The translations under genes were made by a program, and so were the position numbers. A stretch of DNA of 64,000 nucleotides from Pseudaminobacter soli (ex Zhang et al. 2022) (GTDB taxonomy: Bacteria > Pseudomonadota > Alphaproteobacteria > Rhizobiales > Rhizobiaceae), in the NCBI RefSeq assembly GCF_014595955.1, contig NZ_JABVCF010000001.1:496001-560000 (forward strand). Reading direction: 5' to 3'. The notes under the pieces are model-generated. The model searched no databases and was not told the origin of the DNA. It saw only the letters and a program-made list of their open reading frames with translations. Below, one piece after another: positions 8,951-16,490 of the stretch (positions within the stretch are counted from its first letter, which is position 1; each line of letters starts with the position of its first letter).

Positions 8951-9970
8951 CTACGCCACCGCCTCGAAATAGCGCGAGAATTCCGCTCGGACCTCCGCTT
9001 CGTCCGAGCCGTCTCCCGCATGCGCCATGGACAGCGCGCGCTCGGCCCGCGCAAGCGACTTGCCGGTGAGCGGCAAGGTCTTCGAGGCGATGCCCGCCAT
9101 CTCTTCCATGACCCCGTTGCAGTGAAGAACGATGTCGACGCCGGCCGCAAGGATCGCGGCGGCCTTGGAGGGGAAATCCCCAGAAAGTGCCTTCATCGAG
9201 GTGTCGTCGCTGATGAGAAGGCCATCGAAGCCGATCTCGCCGCGGACGATCTCGCTGACTACTTTCCCGGAAGTAGTGGCAGGCGCAGCCGGGTCAATTG
9301 CAGCGAATATGATGTGGGCCGTCATTGCGGCCGGAAGGTCGGCCAGTTCCTTGAAGGGCGCGAAATCGTGCCGTCGCAATTCCTCGATCGGCGCGTCCAC
9401 GGTCGGCAGCGAATGATGCGTGTCGAGAAGCGCACGCCCATGGCCCGGCATATGCTTCATCACCGGAAGCACGCCGCCGGCAAATAAACCCTCGGCGGCG
9501 GCGCGTCCGAGCGCGGTAACCATATTCGGGTCCTTGCCGTAGGCACGGTTGCCGATCACATCGCTCGCCCCCTCGACCGGCACGTCCAGCACCGGCAGGC
9601 AGTCGGCATTGATGCCGAAGCGCTTCAGGTCGAAGGCATGCAGCCGCGAGAGCAGCCATGCCGCCCTGAGGCCCGCTTCCCGGTCCTCCTGATAGAGCGC
9701 GCCGATCGCGGCGGCGGGAGGATAGTTGGGCGCGATCGGCGGGCGCAAACGCTGCACCCGGCCACCCTCCTGATCGATGAACACCGGTGCGTCCGGACGG
9801 CCGACCGCGTCGCGCATCGAGGCGACGAGGTCCGCAATCTGGGCCGGCTCGCCGATGTTACGGGCGAACAGGATGAAGCCCCAGGGTCGTTCGTCCGCGT
9901 AGAACCGGATTTCGTCCTGACTGACGGACTTGCCGGCACAGCCGAGAATCATCGCCTTTGATTCGCTCAT
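8951..9970 (-). CDS. nagZ: Beta-N-acetylhexosaminidase (glycoside hydrolase family 3)
   Basis: A 339-residue cytosolic enzyme that removes N-acetylglucosamine from anhydromuropeptides in cell-wall recycling. Family marks: FIDQEGGRVQRLRPP (about residues 59-73), the KHMPGHGRALLDTHHSLP stretch with the catalytic His loop (about 165-182), and the nucleophile region LLISDDTSMKALSG (about 240-253). I chose ATG at 9970 because the extra ten codons upstream look non-conserved. It follows the terminator of the SPOR gene, so it probably has its own promoter, and leads into scpAB. Confidence 0.94.
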   Translation of the reverse strand: MSESKAMILGCAGKSVSQDEIRFYADERPWGFILFARNIGEPAQIADLVASMRDAVGRPDAPVFIDQEGGRVQRLRPPIAPNYPPAAAIGALYQEDREAGLRAAWLLSRLHAFDLKRFGINADCLPVLDVPVEGASDVIGNRAYGKDPNMVTALGRAAAEGLFAGGVLPVMKHMPGHGRALLDTHHSLPTVDAPIEELRRHDFAPFKELADLPAAMTAHIIFAAIDPAAPATTSGKVVSEIVRGEIGFDGLLISDDTSMKALSGDFPSKAAAILAAGVDIVLHCNGVMEEMAGIASKTLPLTGKSLARAERALSMAHAGDGSDEAEVRAEFSRYFEAVA

Positions 9971-10008
9971 GCCGTCTTCTACGCCTTCTGGGCCCTGCAA
10001 TGAACGAC

Positions 10009-10073: not shown

Positions 10074-13000
10074 TCATCGCGTGACGAAGCAATTGCCTCC
10101 GGCGGCCTTGTAGCTCTCGCAGAGCTTCACTGCGTCGTTGCGGCTTTCGGCCGGGACGCGGACCCGCCAGAAGGTGCCCTTGCCCGCAATCTCGGCCTTC
10201 ACGATGTTGGCCTGCTTGCCCTCCAGCACGCCGCCATAGCGCCGCAGCAGGTCCTGATAGGACGATTGCGCAGCGGCCTCCGTCGGCTGGGAAGCGATCT
10301 GCATGGACCACGACCCGCCGGCGGCTGCAGGCGCGAGACCCGCGACCTGCTGCGGCTTCACCTCGCCGACGATGTCGATAGGCTGATCGGAGGGACGGGC
10401 CGGCGCGATCGGTGCGCGATCGGGCGTGATCCCGATCGTGCCCTGGGCTTGTGGCATGGCCTCGGCCGGCTGGGCGGCCGCCGTCTGGTCGGCAGCGGCG
10501 GTTTCCGGCAACGATGCTGCACCAGCAGGTGCTGCCGTCATCCCGCTCTGGGCCTCGGCCGGCAGCGCGGCGGCGTCGCCGCTGGCAGACAGCGGGGCTG
10601 TAGCGGCCGGATCGACGATGCTCTCCGAAGCTGAGTCCGCGGCTTGATCGGCCGCCGGAGCGGGCTCCTCGCGCGGCACCAGCGTGCCGTCAGCCTTGAC
10701 GATCATGGTCCGGACCTTGCGAGGCGCAACGGCGGCGACTTCCATGGTCTCGTCCACGCCGGCGCCCGCGGCCTGCTCGACCCTGTCCTCGCTCTTGGCG
10801 GAGGGCGCCGCAGCAGCATCGGAGCCTGCCTCGTCAGCCAGCATCGCCTGGGCGCTCTCCAGATCCGCGTTGTCAACGCCGGGAAGATCGAACGGATCAT
10901 CCTGCGGCATCGGAATCTCGACCGGCTCCTCGGCGCTGGAGATGAGCTTCTCCTGGGTCGGCTCGGCGGCTGTCCCGGCGCCAGCCACCGTGTCATAGAC
11001 CTTGCTGTCCTGGTTCGGGATGCTGACGCCGCCGGGATTCTCCGGCTTGACCTTCACCGGCGACGGATCGGCCTTGACCAAGGCGACTTCGTCGCCGCCG
11101 GGCCCGGAGCCGAACGACATTGCCAAGGCGCCGATGCCGCCCAGCATGGCAACGCCGCCTACAACTGCCGCGATTATCATTCCGCGCCTGCGCGACGATC
11201 TTTCGCCGACGGGAGCATAGGCCGGCTCTGAAAAATCCTCCTCCTGGTCCGGATCGAAGGCAAATTCGACATCATTGGGTTCGGTCTGGTTTGCCGATTG
11301 CTGGCGCAGGTAGGTGGCCGCATCCGGCTTGCTCGCGTAGCCGACATCGTAGCCCTGAGGCTGTGCGGCCCCTGCCGCGAGGGCGGCTGCCGTCATAGCC
11401 GCACCCGCTGCCGAAGCCGCGTCGTCGCCATATGGATCGGCTTCCGCCTGCCCCTTCAAACGGATCTCTCGCGAAGCGTCCGCCTGCGGTGCCGCCGAGG
11501 CGATTTCTGCACCGCGGACATTCATGTCCTCGAGCAGGGACGAAAACTCGGCGTCCAGATCGTCGAATGGCGCTGCCGGAACCGGCTCGGGTTCAAAGGC
11601 TATCTCCGGCAGTTCCAGGTCGTCCGCCAGCGCTACCGCCTGCTCCGGCACGTCGATTGTTTCGATCTCCGGCACGTCCTCCCGGATGGCAGGCCTCGCC
11701 AGGGAACTCGCGAAGGACGGAGCGTGCTCCGGATACTGCGGCTCGCCGCGCGCATGCGCTGGAGAGTTGAAATGAGGGTTCTGCAGGCTCGCGGACAGAG
11801 CTGCGAGCGCGGCGTAGGGATCGTCCCTATGCGTGGGCTCCTCGGCCTGCTCGGCGACCGGGGTGGACTGCCTCTCGTCCACGCTCCCGTCTGCCGCGGC
11901 ACTCGTCAGAGCGGCTTCAAACGCATGGTCGTCGAAAGCAAACTCCAGATCAGGTTCCGGCGCTTCCTCAAAAGCGTGCGGCCCCGGAATGTCGTGATGA
12001 TACTGCGCAGCCTGCCGGTCTTCTTCTGAATACGCCGCGGAGGCGCGATGGTTATCGCTGGCTTCAGCAGCGCGCCATTCGTTATCGCCGGCGAGCGATC
12101 CACGCAGCGGCACGCGGACCCAATCGTCCTCGACATCGCTTTGAGGCGCAATTTCAGCGGCGCTTTCCTCGAACGACGGCTCCTCAGGGGCCTGCGGCTG
12201 GTCTTCGGCCGCTAAATCGTTGCCGAGAAGCGCATTCAACTCCTGCTCGAGACTGAGTTCCAGAGCCTCAGCCGGCGAGGGCTGATCAATCGGCGCGGAC
12301 GCGTTCCCGGCATGCACTTCTGCGGTCTCGGGCCAATGCTCGACCAAAGGCTGTATGACCGCTGCGGGGTAGGCTTCGTTGCTCGCCCCCCCCTCTTCGT
12401 GGGCAGCCTGTTCAAAGGAGGCGCTGGTCTCTTCCCAGGCTACCGGCGCCTGATGCCACTCGGGTGCGGCGACGACATGCGGCTCGGAATGATCCGTATC
12501 GTCGATAACCGCCCCGGCAATCTCCGAAGCCTCGCCGACTCCAGCCGCTTCTTCTTCCTGAATAGCATCCTGACCGGCCCACGGCTGAGGCTGTTCCCCA
12601 ATCCAGTCCTGATGCTGTTCGCCGGCCTGATATGCGACGTCATAGGCTGCCGCAATCTCGCCCTGCGGCAGTTCCAATTCGCCGGCTTCGAGGGAGACGT
12701 GATCCGGGGTGACCTCCTGGCTCCATTCCTCGCCGATCTGGTAACCGGCCTCAGCAGCAGCCTGAAATTCGACCTGGTGCGCATCCAGATCAGCGGCCTC
12801 GGGCCAGGTGCGATCTGTGACGCCCTCCTGGTTCCACTGTTCGGGGGCCTGATACTCGGCCGCATGCTCCGTCTGGGCCTCGCCCTGCGGCGCCTGCAAA
12901 TCCGCGGCTTCGGTCAAGGAGCGGCCAATGTCGCTATCCTCGTTCCACTGCTCGCCAGTCTGGTTCTCGGCCGCATACTCCGTCCGGGCCTCGCCCTGCG

Positions 13001-14573
13001 GTACTTCTTGTGCAGCTTCCGACCAAGAGCTGTCCTCTGCAACCTGTTCGACTTCGAACTCGGCCTCGACAAAAACGTTCAGTTGCTCTTCGAAAGCGGC
13101 AGCGAAATCGGACTCAATGGAGGCTTCCGGCTGCGCGGCCAGGGGCGCTACTTCGGGCTGCGCCCACGCAGTTTCCTCGGCCGCATATTCCGTCGGGGCC
13201 TCGGCCAGCGGCGACTCCGCATCGGCAGCTTCCGGCCAAGCGTGGTCTCCCGCGACCTGTTCGACCTCGGGTTCGGCTTCGACAGAAACGCTCAGTTGCT
13301 CATCGAAAGCGGCAGCGAAATCGGACTCAATGGAGGTTTCCGGCTGCACGGCCAGGGGCGCTGGCTCGGGCTGCGCCCACGCAGTTTCCTCGGCCGCATA
13401 CTCTGTCTGGGCTTCGGCCAGCGGCGACTCCGCATCACCAACTTCCGACCAAGCGCAGCCTTCCGCGACCTGCTCGATCTCGGGTTCCGCCTCGACAAGA
13501 GCGCTCAACTGCTCATCAAAAGCGGCAGCGAAATCGGACTCAATCTCAATGGAGGTTTCCGGCTGCGCGGCCAGCGGCGCTGCTTCGGGCTGCGCCCACG
13601 CAGTTTCCTCGGCCGCATATTCCGTCTGGGCTTGGGCCAGCGGCGACTCCGCATCACCAACTTCCGACCAAGCGCGGCCTTCCGCGACCTGCTCGATCTC
13701 GGGTTCCGCCTCGACAAGAGCGCTCAACTGCTCATCAAAAGCGGCAGCGAAATCGGACTCAATCTCAATGGAGGTTTCCGGCTGCGCGGCCAGCGGCGCT
13801 GCTTCGGGCTGCGCCCACGCAGTTTCCTCGGCCGCATATTCCGTCTGGGCCTCGGCCAGCGGCAACTCCGGATCAGCAGCTTCCGACCAGGCGCGATCTT
13901 CCGCGATCTGTTCGCCTTCCGACTCACCCTCGGCCACAACGTCCAGTTGCTCATCGAAAGCGAAATCAAGGGACGGGTCCGCCTGCGCGAAATGAGGCGC
14001 TAGTTCGGACTGCGCCCATGCACCTTCCTCGGGCGCAGCGCTGGCCTGGTCCGGGAATCCGTCGTGCTGGAAGGTCTCGTCGATGCCGATCTCTTTATCC
14101 ACGCTGGATGTGTAAGCCTCGGCGGTCGCTGTATTCCCCTCTTCGGGGAAACCCTCGTGAGGATAGTCGAGGGTAAGTTCAGCGCTCTGTGCCGACAGGT
14201 CGCCCGCCGTTTCATCGGGCTGATACTGATCCGCGAGTTCCATTTCCGCGGCTGCGGGCTGCTCGATTGACTGAGCTTCGTGCGAAAGAGCCTCCGGCGC
14301 AGCGCTGAACTGCCAATCCACCTGCTCGGAAGCATGGAAAGTGTCGTCGGCCAGATCGCCCAAAAGTTCGCGCTCAAGATCAAGGCTCAGATCCGATTGC
14401 TCGAAGTGGGCAGGGTCCGGATCGGACTGTACCGCCGGCTTGACCTCCTTGACGGCCGCCGGCTTTGCGGGCTCGCGCGGATCGAAGCCCATTATCCTGG
14501 TCAGTTCCGCGAAGGGATCGTCGTCCGAAATTGCAGACTGGTCGGCGATCTTGCGGGATGCTTGCTCTGCCAT
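10074..14573 (-). CDS. Giant SPOR-domain protein with tandem acidic repeats
   Basis: A 1,499-residue protein. The last 75 or so residues form a SPOR domain (GGSWSMQIASQPTE to AAGGNCFVTR), which binds denuded glycan strands at the division septum. One membrane helix, MIIAAVVGGVAMLGGIGAL, lies near residue 1,130 after an RRR stop-transfer motif, so about 1,120 residues are cytosolic. That long part is Ala/Glu/Gln-rich and acidic, with repeated units of 71-73 residues roughly between 200 and 510, built around FAAAFDEQLS, EYAAEETAWAQPE and AAQPETSIESD. I chose ATG at 14573. The place between argS and nagZ is conserved in rhizobia; the length is large for the family. Role in division is inferred from the SPOR domain. 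Confidence 0.88.
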   Translation of the reverse strand: MAEQASRKIADQSAISDDDPFAELTRIMGFDPREPAKPAAVKEVKPAVQSDPDPAHFEQSDLSLDLERELLGDLADDTFHASEQVDWQFSAAPEALSHEAQSIEQPAAAEMELADQYQPDETAGDLSAQSAELTLDYPHEGFPEEGNTATAEAYTSSVDKEIGIDETFQHDGFPDQASAAPEEGAWAQSELAPHFAQADPSLDFAFDEQLDVVAEGESEGEQIAEDRAWSEAADPELPLAEAQTEYAAEETAWAQPEAAPLAAQPETSIEIESDFAAAFDEQLSALVEAEPEIEQVAEGRAWSEVGDAESPLAQAQTEYAAEETAWAQPEAAPLAAQPETSIEIESDFAAAFDEQLSALVEAEPEIEQVAEGCAWSEVGDAESPLAEAQTEYAAEETAWAQPEPAPLAVQPETSIESDFAAAFDEQLSVSVEAEPEVEQVAGDHAWPEAADAESPLAEAPTEYAAEETAWAQPEVAPLAAQPEASIESDFAAAFEEQLNVFVEAEFEVEQVAEDSSWSEAAQEVPQGEARTEYAAENQTGEQWNEDSDIGRSLTEAADLQAPQGEAQTEHAAEYQAPEQWNQEGVTDRTWPEAADLDAHQVEFQAAAEAGYQIGEEWSQEVTPDHVSLEAGELELPQGEIAAAYDVAYQAGEQHQDWIGEQPQPWAGQDAIQEEEAAGVGEASEIAGAVIDDTDHSEPHVVAAPEWHQAPVAWEETSASFEQAAHEEGGASNEAYPAAVIQPLVEHWPETAEVHAGNASAPIDQPSPAEALELSLEQELNALLGNDLAAEDQPQAPEEPSFEESAAEIAPQSDVEDDWVRVPLRGSLAGDNEWRAAEASDNHRASAAYSEEDRQAAQYHHDIPGPHAFEEAPEPDLEFAFDDHAFEAALTSAAADGSVDERQSTPVAEQAEEPTHRDDPYAALAALSASLQNPHFNSPAHARGEPQYPEHAPSFASSLARPAIREDVPEIETIDVPEQAVALADDLELPEIAFEPEPVPAAPFDDLDAEFSSLLEDMNVRGAEIASAAPQADASREIRLKGQAEADPYGDDAASAAGAAMTAAALAAGAAQPQGYDVGYASKPDAATYLRQQSANQTEPNDVEFAFDPDQEEDFSEPAYAPVGERSSRRRGMIIAAVVGGVAMLGGIGALAMSFGSGPGGDEVALVKADPSPVKVKPENPGGVSIPNQDSKVYDTVAGAGTAAEPTQEKLISSAEEPVEIPMPQDDPFDLPGVDNADLESAQAMLADEAGSDAAAAPSAKSEDRVEQAAGAGVDETMEVAAVAPRKVRTMIVKADGTLVPREEPAPAADQAADSASESIVDPAATAPLSASGDAAALPAEAQSGMTAAPAGAASLPETAAADQTAAAQPAEAMPQAQGTIGITPDRAPIAPARPSDQPIDIVGEVKPQQVAGLAPAAAGGSWSMQIASQPTEAAAQSSYQDLLRRYGGVLEGKQANIVKAEIAGKGTFWRVRVPAESRNDAVKLCESYKAAGGNCFVTR
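13050..13965 (-). repeat. In-frame tandem repeats of 213-219 bp inside the SPOR gene
   Basis: About four and a half copies of a 71- or 73-codon unit run head to tail. The unit reads FAAAFDEQLS, then acidic residues, then EYAAEETAWAQPE and AAQPETSIESD. Positions 13458-13631 and 13677-13850 are identical over 174 bp at a 219-bp offset. Outer copies are more diverged, and a decayed series continues toward the C-terminal side. Confidence 0.9.
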
Positions 14574-14672
14574 GCTTGGTACCGAATCTCGACACAAAAG
14601 GACGCGTAAGCGTCAGGCGTGGCCGCGCCGTACCAGCGTAATGTGGGCAAAAGGTGACCCGGTCACCCTCGG

Positions 14673-16430
14673 CTATCGCATCTCGCTTGGCGCTTCGGCC
14701 CCGATCAGCCCAAGTCCGGACGTGATCACGTCCAATACCGCTTGGACCAGTCCGAGCCTGGCATAGCTCAATTGTGGGTCGGTAACCTTAACAAAGCGTA
14801 AGTCGGGGTTGTCTGTCCCCCGATTCCACTGCGCATGGAACAGGCTGGCAAGATCATAAAGGTAGAACGCCAGTCTGTGAGGCTCGAGCGACTGCGCCGC
14901 CTGTTCGATGAGACGGGGGTATTCTGCGAGCTTGCGGATCAGCGCAATCTCGCTTTCCTCGGTGAGCAGTTGCGCATCTGCGCAGAGTTCCTCACGCGCG
15001 TTCGGCACGCTCCCAAACTGCTCGTTCGCCTGCCGGAAGACCGAATGGCAACGCGCGGAAGCGTACTGGACGTAGAAGACCGGATTGTCCTTCGACTGCT
15101 CAGTGACCTTGGCGAAGTCGAAGTCCAAGGGAGCGTCGTTCTTGCGGTAGAGCATCATGAAACGGATCGGATCGCGACCGACCTCTTCCACGACTTCGCG
15201 CAGCGTGATGAAATCGCCGGAGCGCTTCGACATCCGCACCGGCTCGCCTTGGCGGTAGAGCTTCACCAACTGGCAGAGGAGCACGGTGAGCTTGAGCTTG
15301 TCGCCACCCAACGCCCGCGCCAGCGCCTCCATGCGCTTGACATAGCCGCCATGGTCGGCGCCGAGCACGAAGATCGTGTGATTGAAGCCGCGCCTAATCT
15401 TGTCCTTCAGATAGGCGACGTCGGCGGCGAAATAGGTGAACTGCCCGTCCGACTTCACCAAGGGCCGGTCGATGTCGTCTCCGACCGCCGTCGAGCGGAA
15501 CAGCGTCTGCTCGCGGTCCTCCCAGTCTTCCGGCTTCTCGCCCTTCGGCGGCGGCAGCTTGCCCTTGTAGATATGCCCTTCCATCGTCAGTTCGGCAATG
15601 ACGGCACGGATCGCCTGCTCGTTGTTGGCGTGCAGCGTGCGTTCCGAGAAGAACACTTCGTGGTGGACGTTGAGCAGCGCAAGATCCTCGCGGATCATGG
15701 CCATCATGGCGTGGATCGCGCGGTCCTTGACGATCTCCATCGCCTCCTCATCCGGCATCTTCAGGAGGCCGTCGCCATATTCCACCGCCAACTGCCGGCC
15801 GAGGGGAACCAGGTAATCGCCCGGATAGAGACCGGGCGGAATTTCGCCGATGTTCTCGCCCAGCGCTTCGCGGTAGCGCAGCATCACCGAGCGGGCGAGC
15901 ACGTCGATCTGCGCGCCGGCGTCGTTGATCAGGTATTCCTTGGTCACGTCATGCCCGGTGAAGGCGAGCAGGTTGGCGAGGGTGTCGCCCACCACCGCGC
16001 CACGGCAATGGCCGACATGCATCGGTCCCGTCGGGTTGGCCGAGACGTATTCGACGTTGACCTTGGCACCGCGCCCCATGTCGGAGCGTCCGAAATCCAC
16101 ACCGAGCCTCACGAGGTCCCGCAGATATCCGTGCCAGTAGGAGTTCCTGAGGCGAAGATTGACGAAGCCGGGACCGGCGACGGTGGCCTCCTCGACGTCC
16201 GGATCGGCCTTCAGCGCAGCGGCGATCCGTTCGGCGAGCGCGCGCGGGTTCTGGCCGGCAGTCTTGGAAAGCACGAGGGCGGCATTGGTGGCCAGATCAC
16301 CGTGGCTGGGGTCGCGCGGCGGCTCTACGGCCATGCGCCCGAAATCCAGAGCACCGCCGTCCGACGATTTCAGATCGAGGCCTTCCACGGCTTTCCTGAT
16401 CCGCTCGTTGAAGTCGGCGAAAACGTTCAT
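14673..16430 (-). CDS. argS: Arginyl-tRNA synthetase
   Basis: A 585-residue class I synthetase that charges tRNA-Arg. The HIGH-type signature is [20 protein letters not shown] (about residues 120-139), and the KMSKS counterpart is [16 protein letters not shown], a common ArgS variant. The C-terminal anticodon-binding domain contains the DALR-type region near [22 protein letters not shown] at 16430 gives the standard N-terminus [15 protein letters not shown]; an upstream start would add 12 unsupported residues. It lies between dgt and the SPOR gene with short gaps. Confidence 0.97.
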
Positions 16431-16490
16431 TCTGGAATTCCTGGGAGGTTGCGGCACGCGGATCATCCAGCAGCCGGAATGGTGCTTGCC

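Follow-up and report, generated by a model that had tools for sequence, protein, structure and literature searches.

A tandem array in the predicted cytoplasmic tail of an RgsS-like SPOR protein of Pseudaminobacter soli

The gene and its repeat array

The stretch of DNA analysed here, hereafter the window, comprises 64,000 nucleotides of Pseudaminobacter soli (contig NZ_JABVCF010000001.1, positions 496,001 to 560,000 of the forward strand), and contains on its complement strand a gene whose product is apparently orthologous to RgsS, an FtsN-like SPOR protein of Sinorhizobium meliloti. The product combines a very long N-terminal part, one predicted membrane helix and a C-terminal SPOR domain, and within the N-terminal part, or tail, lies a tandem array of five in-frame units that by a rough clock is specific to this lineage and recently extended. 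The features of the gene and the array are as follows, residue numbers here and below following the mechanically called open reading frame (ORF; complement 10074-14597, TTG start, 1507 residues).

10074-14573, complement: rgsS-like gene, 1499 amino acids, beginning with the ATG at 14573, where an alignment of 44 homologues has a conserved MA start
11124-11180, complement: predicted transmembrane helix, residues 1140-1158 (hydropathy maximum)
10080-10319, complement: SPOR domain, residues 1427-1506 (Pfam PF05036, E 1.2e-08, 35.6 bits, cut-off 21)
13842-14060, complement: unit U0, a diverged copy, residues 180-252
13623-13841, complement: unit U1, 73 codons
13404-13622, complement: unit U2, 73 codons, 3 differences from U1
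13191-13403, complement: unit U3, 71 codons
12981-13190, complement: unit U4, 70 codons
12789-13001, complement: separate 37-codon duplication, 1.9 copies, adjoining U4
13458-13631: first copy of a 174-base exact repeat (direct base comparison)
13677-13850: second copy of the 174-base exact repeat (direct base comparison)
12966-13962: Tandem Repeats Finder (TRF) row, period 219, 4.6 copies, score 1312
12966-13967: TRF row, period 432

The original prediction, made from the letters of the DNA, held that two neighbouring 219-bp units share an identical run of 174 bases, and the run is real: 174 of 174 bases match between the two copies, and the exact identity stops at the coordinates listed. The longest repeat expected by chance in a 64-kb window is about 16 bases. 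Autocorrelation over 12801-14200 has its top lag at 219 (0.546) and the next at 213 (0.486). Each of the 142 exact 40-mers that recur in the window falls within 13151-13850, and apart from two rows, both of which describe this array, TRF gives no period above 24 in the window. The five units occupy 12981-14060 on the complement strand, in the gene order U0, U1, U2, U3, U4; between U1 and U2, 3 of the 219 bases are changed (one synonymous and two non-synonymous differences, 98.6% identity), and the length differences among units are whole codons. The repeat had been placed at 13050-13965, with in-frame units of 71 or 73 codons; a repeat does lie there and the frame is kept by whole-codon differences, while the limits proved wider and a 70-codon unit joins the two lengths named. 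Two further claims, that the gene encodes a SPOR protein and that the array is a cytosolic spacer, agree respectively with the PF05036 match and with the position of the array, which lies across the single predicted membrane helix (a hydropathy prediction) from the SPOR domain.

Age of the array

The age of the array can be judged against argS, one of the two genes that flank the rgsS-like gene.

14673-16466, complement: argS, upstream neighbour (NCBIfam TIGR00456), used for orthology and for synonymous divergence
8951-10000, complement: nagZ-type beta-N-acetylhexosaminidase gene, downstream neighbour (NCBIfam NF003740, Pfam PF00933)

Synonymous divergence (dS) and the ratio of non-synonymous to synonymous divergence (dN/dS) between units were obtained by the method of Nei and Gojobori. 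The dS is 0.02 for U1 and U2 and 0.25-0.52 for the other pairs, and dN/dS lies between 0.32 and 0.61. For argS, the dS to three other genomes of the genus is 0.66, 0.65 and 0.84. Since unit dS is below argS dS, the array would have arisen, by this rough clock, after the split from those three genus mates, in which no array was detected at the TRF threshold (a minimum period of 75 bases and a minimum score of 200, under which older or shorter repeats fall). The array is thus, on these estimates, lineage-specific and recently extended, with a last duplication much younger than the split. A recent in-frame expansion within a gene with conserved ends had been predicted, and both the dS values and the conserved end blocks described below bear this out. 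Either of the two mechanisms proposed with it, unequal exchange or gene conversion, may have been at work. Nor do all relatives have one fixed repeat number and sequence: besides the three genus mates, counts vary among species of Mesorhizobium. A hidden Markov model (HMM) of the window unit had no significant match in the other tails (best E 0.043).

An identity of 174 bases between two units of a 51-contig draft invites the explanation that the copy number is an assembly artefact, units having been collapsed or expanded. U0, U3 and U4, however, have diverged from one another and from the U1/U2 pair (dS 0.25-0.52), and a similar array (3.0 x 80 residues) is found at homologue locus L127, whose record is titled a complete genome. 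At least four units are distinct, and the doubt is therefore limited to the count of U1/U2; a wrong copy number seems improbable.

Recurrence of arrays among homologues

Homologues were drawn from regions of 117 of 150 other genomes, from the genus genomes G001 and G002, and from 80 named loci, these being the best 80 of 126 and mostly from Mesorhizobium; the 199 loci gave 195 distinct homologues, or 196 with the window. Long-unit arrays at the TRF threshold occur in 15 of the 196 (the partial gene L120 is in this count, and is left out of the tree, the motif tests and the block measurement by regular expression). All 24 array rows lie before the predicted membrane helix, that is, on the predicted cytoplasmic side, and the window tail is the longest of the 196 (1139 residues against 958 for the next). 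At the 80 named loci, 18 array rows fall in 276 kb of gene and none in 1.04 Mb of flanks; the 18 rows share ancestry and are therefore not 18 events. Periods are divisible by three in 86 of the 87 TRF rows with a score of at least 100.

When the array label is mapped on a tree built from the C-terminal part, 10 changes are needed, 8 of them required by branches with good support. Some repeats of Mesorhizobium escape the label (L125 carries a pair of short units but has no TRF row), which inflates the number of changes there, and only five separate places are therefore claimed: a Mesorhizobium group, and the window, L127, L161 and L056, whose nearest rows are in each case free of arrays. By eye, the units of the five places are unlike each other. 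Twenty Mesorhizobium proteins have two unit types other than that of the window, a short type in 0-3 copies and a long type in 1-2 copies, and repeat number differs between species; in L125, L100 and L099, which are close neighbours on the tree, short and long units number 2+1, 1+2 and 2+2. There was no significant sign of concerted evolution in Mesorhizobium, as 5 of 34 units have their nearest unit within their own protein, a value that label shuffles reach in 10% of cases, in a test whose regular expression misses some units. Three of these five same-protein cases are in L129, where three 39-residue units (ORF residues 210-328) are closest to each other and not to those of the sister species; this array looks recently homogenised or re-expanded, judging by unit similarity.

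Short-unit repeats of the NPGYG and SDLGHDE types were also seen, in L046 (residues 676-715), L075 (530-568) and L084 (534-589), and repeats with units of different lengths seem to arise readily in the tail.

Conserved blocks and where the length varies

Length change in the tail can be placed relative to four short conserved blocks, named NB, M2, M3 and M67, which in the window protein are arranged as follows.

14478-14531, complement: distal block NB, ISDDDPFAELTRIMGFDP, residues 23-40 (HMM; found in 181 of 190 uncut homologues)
14352-14393, complement: block M2, DLSLDLERELLGDL, residues 69-82 (152 of the 157 rows having NB and M67)
12261-14351, complement: elastic acidic spacer M2-M3, 698 residues (median of 107 homologues 306)
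12219-12260, complement: block M3, ELSLEQELNALLGN, residues 780-793 (HMM)
11526-11675, complement: block M67, 50 residues (975-1024), of near-constant length in homologues (HMM)

Blocks were located with iterated HMMs on 190 uncut rows, left after removal of L120, L069, L070, L094, L160 and L235, whose ORFs meet the edge of the locus. M67 was found in 161 rows, NB together with M67 in 157, and all four blocks in order in 107. As the composition correction of HMMER hides M2 of the very acidic window protein, measures that include the window were made without the correction. In the 107 rows the M2-M3 spacer has a median of 306 and a range of 29-698 residues, the window being the maximum; array-free homologues already extend from 29 to 409 residues. 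The variance of tail length in these rows is divided among M2-M3 (75%), M3-M67 (18%), M67 to the membrane helix (4%), NB-M2 (1%) and M67 itself (0%), and per residue it amounts to 24.0 for M2-M3, 13.4 for M3-M67 and less than 2 elsewhere. The share of M2-M3 is 68% without the window (106 rows), and among the 92 array-free rows it is 63%, with 29% for M3-M67; in a set thinned at 70% identity it is 89% with the window (26 rows) and 69% without. Other estimates of this share are 0.94 (regular expression, 61 rows), 0.71 (HMM, window left out) and 0.71 (thinned, window left out). Two adjoining stretches thus vary, M2-M3 the most, and M67 and its distance to the membrane helix hardly do.

The arrays follow the same pattern, 23 of 24 array rows lying in M2-M3, a stretch that makes up a median of 38.5% of the tail in array-free rows. 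By our own arithmetic, which takes five separate origins and counts L161 as confined, such confinement would arise by chance about 1% of the time. L161 carries a 55-residue unit in M3-M67 (ORF residues 429-533), the sole long array detected outside M2-M3, and has a second array in M2-M3. An alignment of 44 sequences (the window and 43 others) has ten invariant columns at the distal end.

Net charge per residue in the M2-M3 spacer is -0.247 +/- 0.038, and charge density has no significant trend with spacer length (Spearman 0.17, p 0.09, 106 rows). Single-sequence folding predicts the five-unit array to be mostly disordered, with a mean predicted local distance difference test score (pLDDT) of 45.4 and 248 of 360 residues below 50, and short weak helices recur across the units; a fold search with this model returned one match (E 3.7), which is what disorder would lead one to expect and was given no weight. 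A model of the NB-M2 region from the 44 sequences, with a mean pLDDT of 64, places short helices at NB and at M2 (means over ten residues of 84 and 79) in an otherwise loose chain, a predicted pattern that looks like docking motifs in a disordered tail and is no proof of binding.

Relation to RgsS

The assignment to RgsS is suggested by the long acidic tail, by the one predicted helix, and by the cysteine pair of the SPOR region, which is spaced and placed as in S. meliloti. The C terminus of the window protein reads C-ESYKAAGGN-C-FVTR, with the cysteines 10 apart and the second 4 from the end; RgsS likewise has a C-terminal SPOR domain, with cysteines C931 and C941 of 945 residues (PMC7327166, PMC7822825; this and the following statements from the literature refer to the passages of the cited papers drawn on here). 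The two proteins also share a single membrane helix and a cytoplasmic part of great length, which in the window protein are hydropathy predictions, with a tail of 1139 ORF residues against a homologue median of 744. Moreover, the order argS, rgsS-like gene, nagZ is kept in all 71 named loci of at least 16 kb, and argS or nagZ is present at all 195 homologue loci.

RgsS is essential in S. meliloti, being required for division and growth polarity (PMC7327166, PMC7822825), and its depletion leads to short, partly branched filaments (PMC7327166). It is found at the growing pole and the septum, and has been proposed as a marker of the growing pole in unipolar growers (PMC7327166, PMC7822825). An additional function of its own has been suggested for the cytoplasmic part of about 600 residues (PMC7327166). 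A pulldown with RgsS enriched RgsE, which was weakly positive in a two-hybrid assay, and did not enrich homologues of the division partners of E. coli FtsN, and RgsA was strongly positive with RgsS in the two-hybrid assay (PMC7327166). The SPOR domain proved dispensable for propagation, and the recruiter to the septum was left open (PMC7822825).

Possible roles of the elastic tail

One reading of these data, to which we assign about an even chance, is that the tail acts as a distal hook on an elastic, acidic and disordered tether that is lengthened by duplication of units. In the RgsS-like protein a single membrane helix would separate the periplasmic SPOR domain from a long acidic tail in the cytoplasm, which would be a chain of conserved short blocks joined by disordered spacers. 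NB and M2, the part farthest from the membrane along the chain, would be the best candidates for a docking site, and probably dock at this free end on a cytoplasmic protein of the growth pole or the division apparatus, for which RgsA and RgsE/GPR, both linked to RgsS in published work, are candidates. The length of M67 and the stretch from it to the membrane would be near-fixed and M3-M67 somewhat variable, leaving M2-M3 as the elastic acidic tether, whose length would change through in-frame tandem duplication of units. In this genome the tether would have roughly doubled, to about 698 residues, by means of the five-unit array, with a recent last duplication, and in some other lineages the same stretch would have been lengthened with other units. 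As each unit keeps the charge density, duplication would add reach and total negative charge and leave the chemistry unchanged.

Neutral drift explains the comparative data equally well, and is given the same weight. Here, M2-M3 would be the least constrained of the disordered parts, slippage or unequal exchange would alter its length, and the cell would be indifferent, a scenario compatible with the block anatomy and incompatible with a use of length. It is favoured by the lack of a significant match of the window unit in other tails, by the wide range of M2-M3 already present in array-free homologues, and by the fact that no motif common to all arrays has been shown. On the other side, charge density is held near -0.25 across the whole range of lengths, unit dN/dS is 0.32-0.61, and M67 and its distance to the helix keep their length, yet each of these would also fit a weak constraint on composition only.

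Several observations count against a functional tether. The block map rests on 107 of the 190 uncut rows, the other 83 being without at least one block by these HMMs, and the 44 aligned sequences were picked from the 107, so that their invariant columns are partly a matter of selection. M3-M67 varies too, both in its share of the variance (18%, or 29% without arrays) and per residue (13.4 against 24.0), and it holds one of the arrays of L161; the M2-M3 share in the thinned set falls from 89% to 69% when the window is left out. It is for the variation of M3-M67, and the extent to which the thinned share leans on the window, that confidence in the tether is lowered. Furthermore, charge is preserved by copying itself, the unit dN/dS below 1 rests on few sites, the array model was made from a single sequence with a mean pLDDT of 45, the copy number is that of the 51-contig assembly, and the likeness to S. 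meliloti RgsS was judged from its published description.

A third explanation is that each unit carries a short acidic helical motif, such that repeats add binding sites for a partner or for condensates instead of reach. The 195 tails contain 799 instances of the pattern [DSNET][LIMFV][ED]x[EDQ][LIM], conserved single copies included, which is about 14 times the 55 +/- 7 of 50 shuffles, and the weak helices that recur per unit in the array model would suit such a role. With the M2 profile, matches were found for the units of L127 (shuffle fraction 0.001; windows from other tails 0.018) and for the 39-42-residue units of Mesorhizobium (0.003; 0.033-0.035), whereas the four window units did no better than shuffles (0.10-0.16), L056, L161 and the 76-residue Mesorhizobium unit missed (0.055-0.22), and L077 was marginal (0.048). 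With a mixed M2 and M3 profile, two of the four window units beat shuffles (0.003 and 0.020), but not windows from other tails (0.20-0.23). Since the window units lack a significant match to the M2 profile, multivalency is a less likely explanation for the window, and as a general account it seems unlikely; it may apply to the short Mesorhizobium units and to L127, as far as these profile matches go. The idea that every array multiplies an LExEL-type motif like that of M2 or M3 was rejected, as only L127 and the 39-42-residue Mesorhizobium units pass and the window does not clearly do so.

The tether reading can be carried further, to an evolvable cytoplasmic ruler in which a hook sits on a disordered tether of constant charge and of a length set by duplication or loss of units. 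Selection on length would then adjust the movement of RgsS between septum and growing pole, and repeat number would tune growth polarity in Rhizobiales, much as stalk repeats do in surface proteins; this extension, akin to the original suggestion that a spacer of changing length could tune how a septal protein reaches the division site, is speculative and is itself doubtful.

Relation to other proteins with long linkers or repeats

Within RgsS the window protein is a new form, with the longest tail of the 196 examined and a lineage-specific array. Its cytoplasmic part of about 1130 residues contrasts with the roughly 600 published for RgsS (PMC7327166), and the passages of the RgsS papers drawn on here (PMC7327166, PMC7822825) make no mention of a tandem array such as that of 70-73-codon units in the window. 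The FtsN-like CC2007 of Caulobacter and FtsN of E. coli are likewise SPOR-type division proteins, and CC2007 differs by a cytoplasmic region of about 30 residues (PMC7327166). PopZ of Caulobacter (PMC9512792) is an alphaproteobacterial polar protein that also has an acidic disordered linker, and changing the length of this linker alters function; it is, however, narrow in length in Caulobacterales (93 +/- 1 amino acids), with longer linkers having a lower fraction of charge, in contrast to the broad length and constant charge density of M2-M3. The C-terminal linker of alphaproteobacterial FtsZ (PMC13170164) is similarly a long disordered linker in a division protein, and its truncation leads to fewer foci being formed; this is another protein, and tandem units are not mentioned in the passages drawn on. 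Periscope proteins (PMC8201768) offer a partial parallel: their length derives from the number of near-identical tandem units, with a functional part at the far end, and here U1 and U2 are 98.6% identical and unit number differs between Mesorhizobium species. These are surface stalks of folded domains, unlike the window array, a predicted disordered cytoplasmic tether of an inner-membrane protein, which stands before the predicted helix and opposite the SPOR domain and is mostly disordered in the model. The window protein was not filed under PopZ or FtsZ, which are different proteins, nor under periscope proteins, as it is not a surface stalk of folded domains. A literature search over titles and the openings of abstracts, in which few subscription journals were represented, found no description of the repeats or of the block map.

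The map divides the cytoplasmic part of RgsS into two distal candidate docking blocks, two membrane-near blocks and one elastic acidic tether, and thus bears on the role of the long cytoplasmic part and on the mid-cell recruiter, both of which were left open in the published passages (PMC7327166, PMC7822825). Spacer length becomes a testable trait for which natural length variants are available for comparison. If length does matter, the tail would be a cytoplasmic, disordered counterpart to the tuning of surface proteins by repeat number.

Other features of the locus

SPOR is the sole Pfam family over its cut-off in the gene product; a match to FRB_dom (E 0.039, under the cut-off) was taken as chance. 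The NCBIfam model CellDivFtsNCaul (NF050813) matches the window protein weakly (E 5e-05, 23.6 bits against a cut-off of 300), and because the score is far under the cut-off the protein was not counted as a member. The genes scpA and scpB also lie downstream, scpA being below the NCBIfam cut-offs and above that of Pfam. Opposite the array, within 12312-14176, the forward strand has three ORFs of 563, 355 and 388 amino acids. An in-register antisense stop would arise from 6 of the 1507 rgsS codons, and these ORFs probably result from GC-rich codon choice that the repeats have multiplied.

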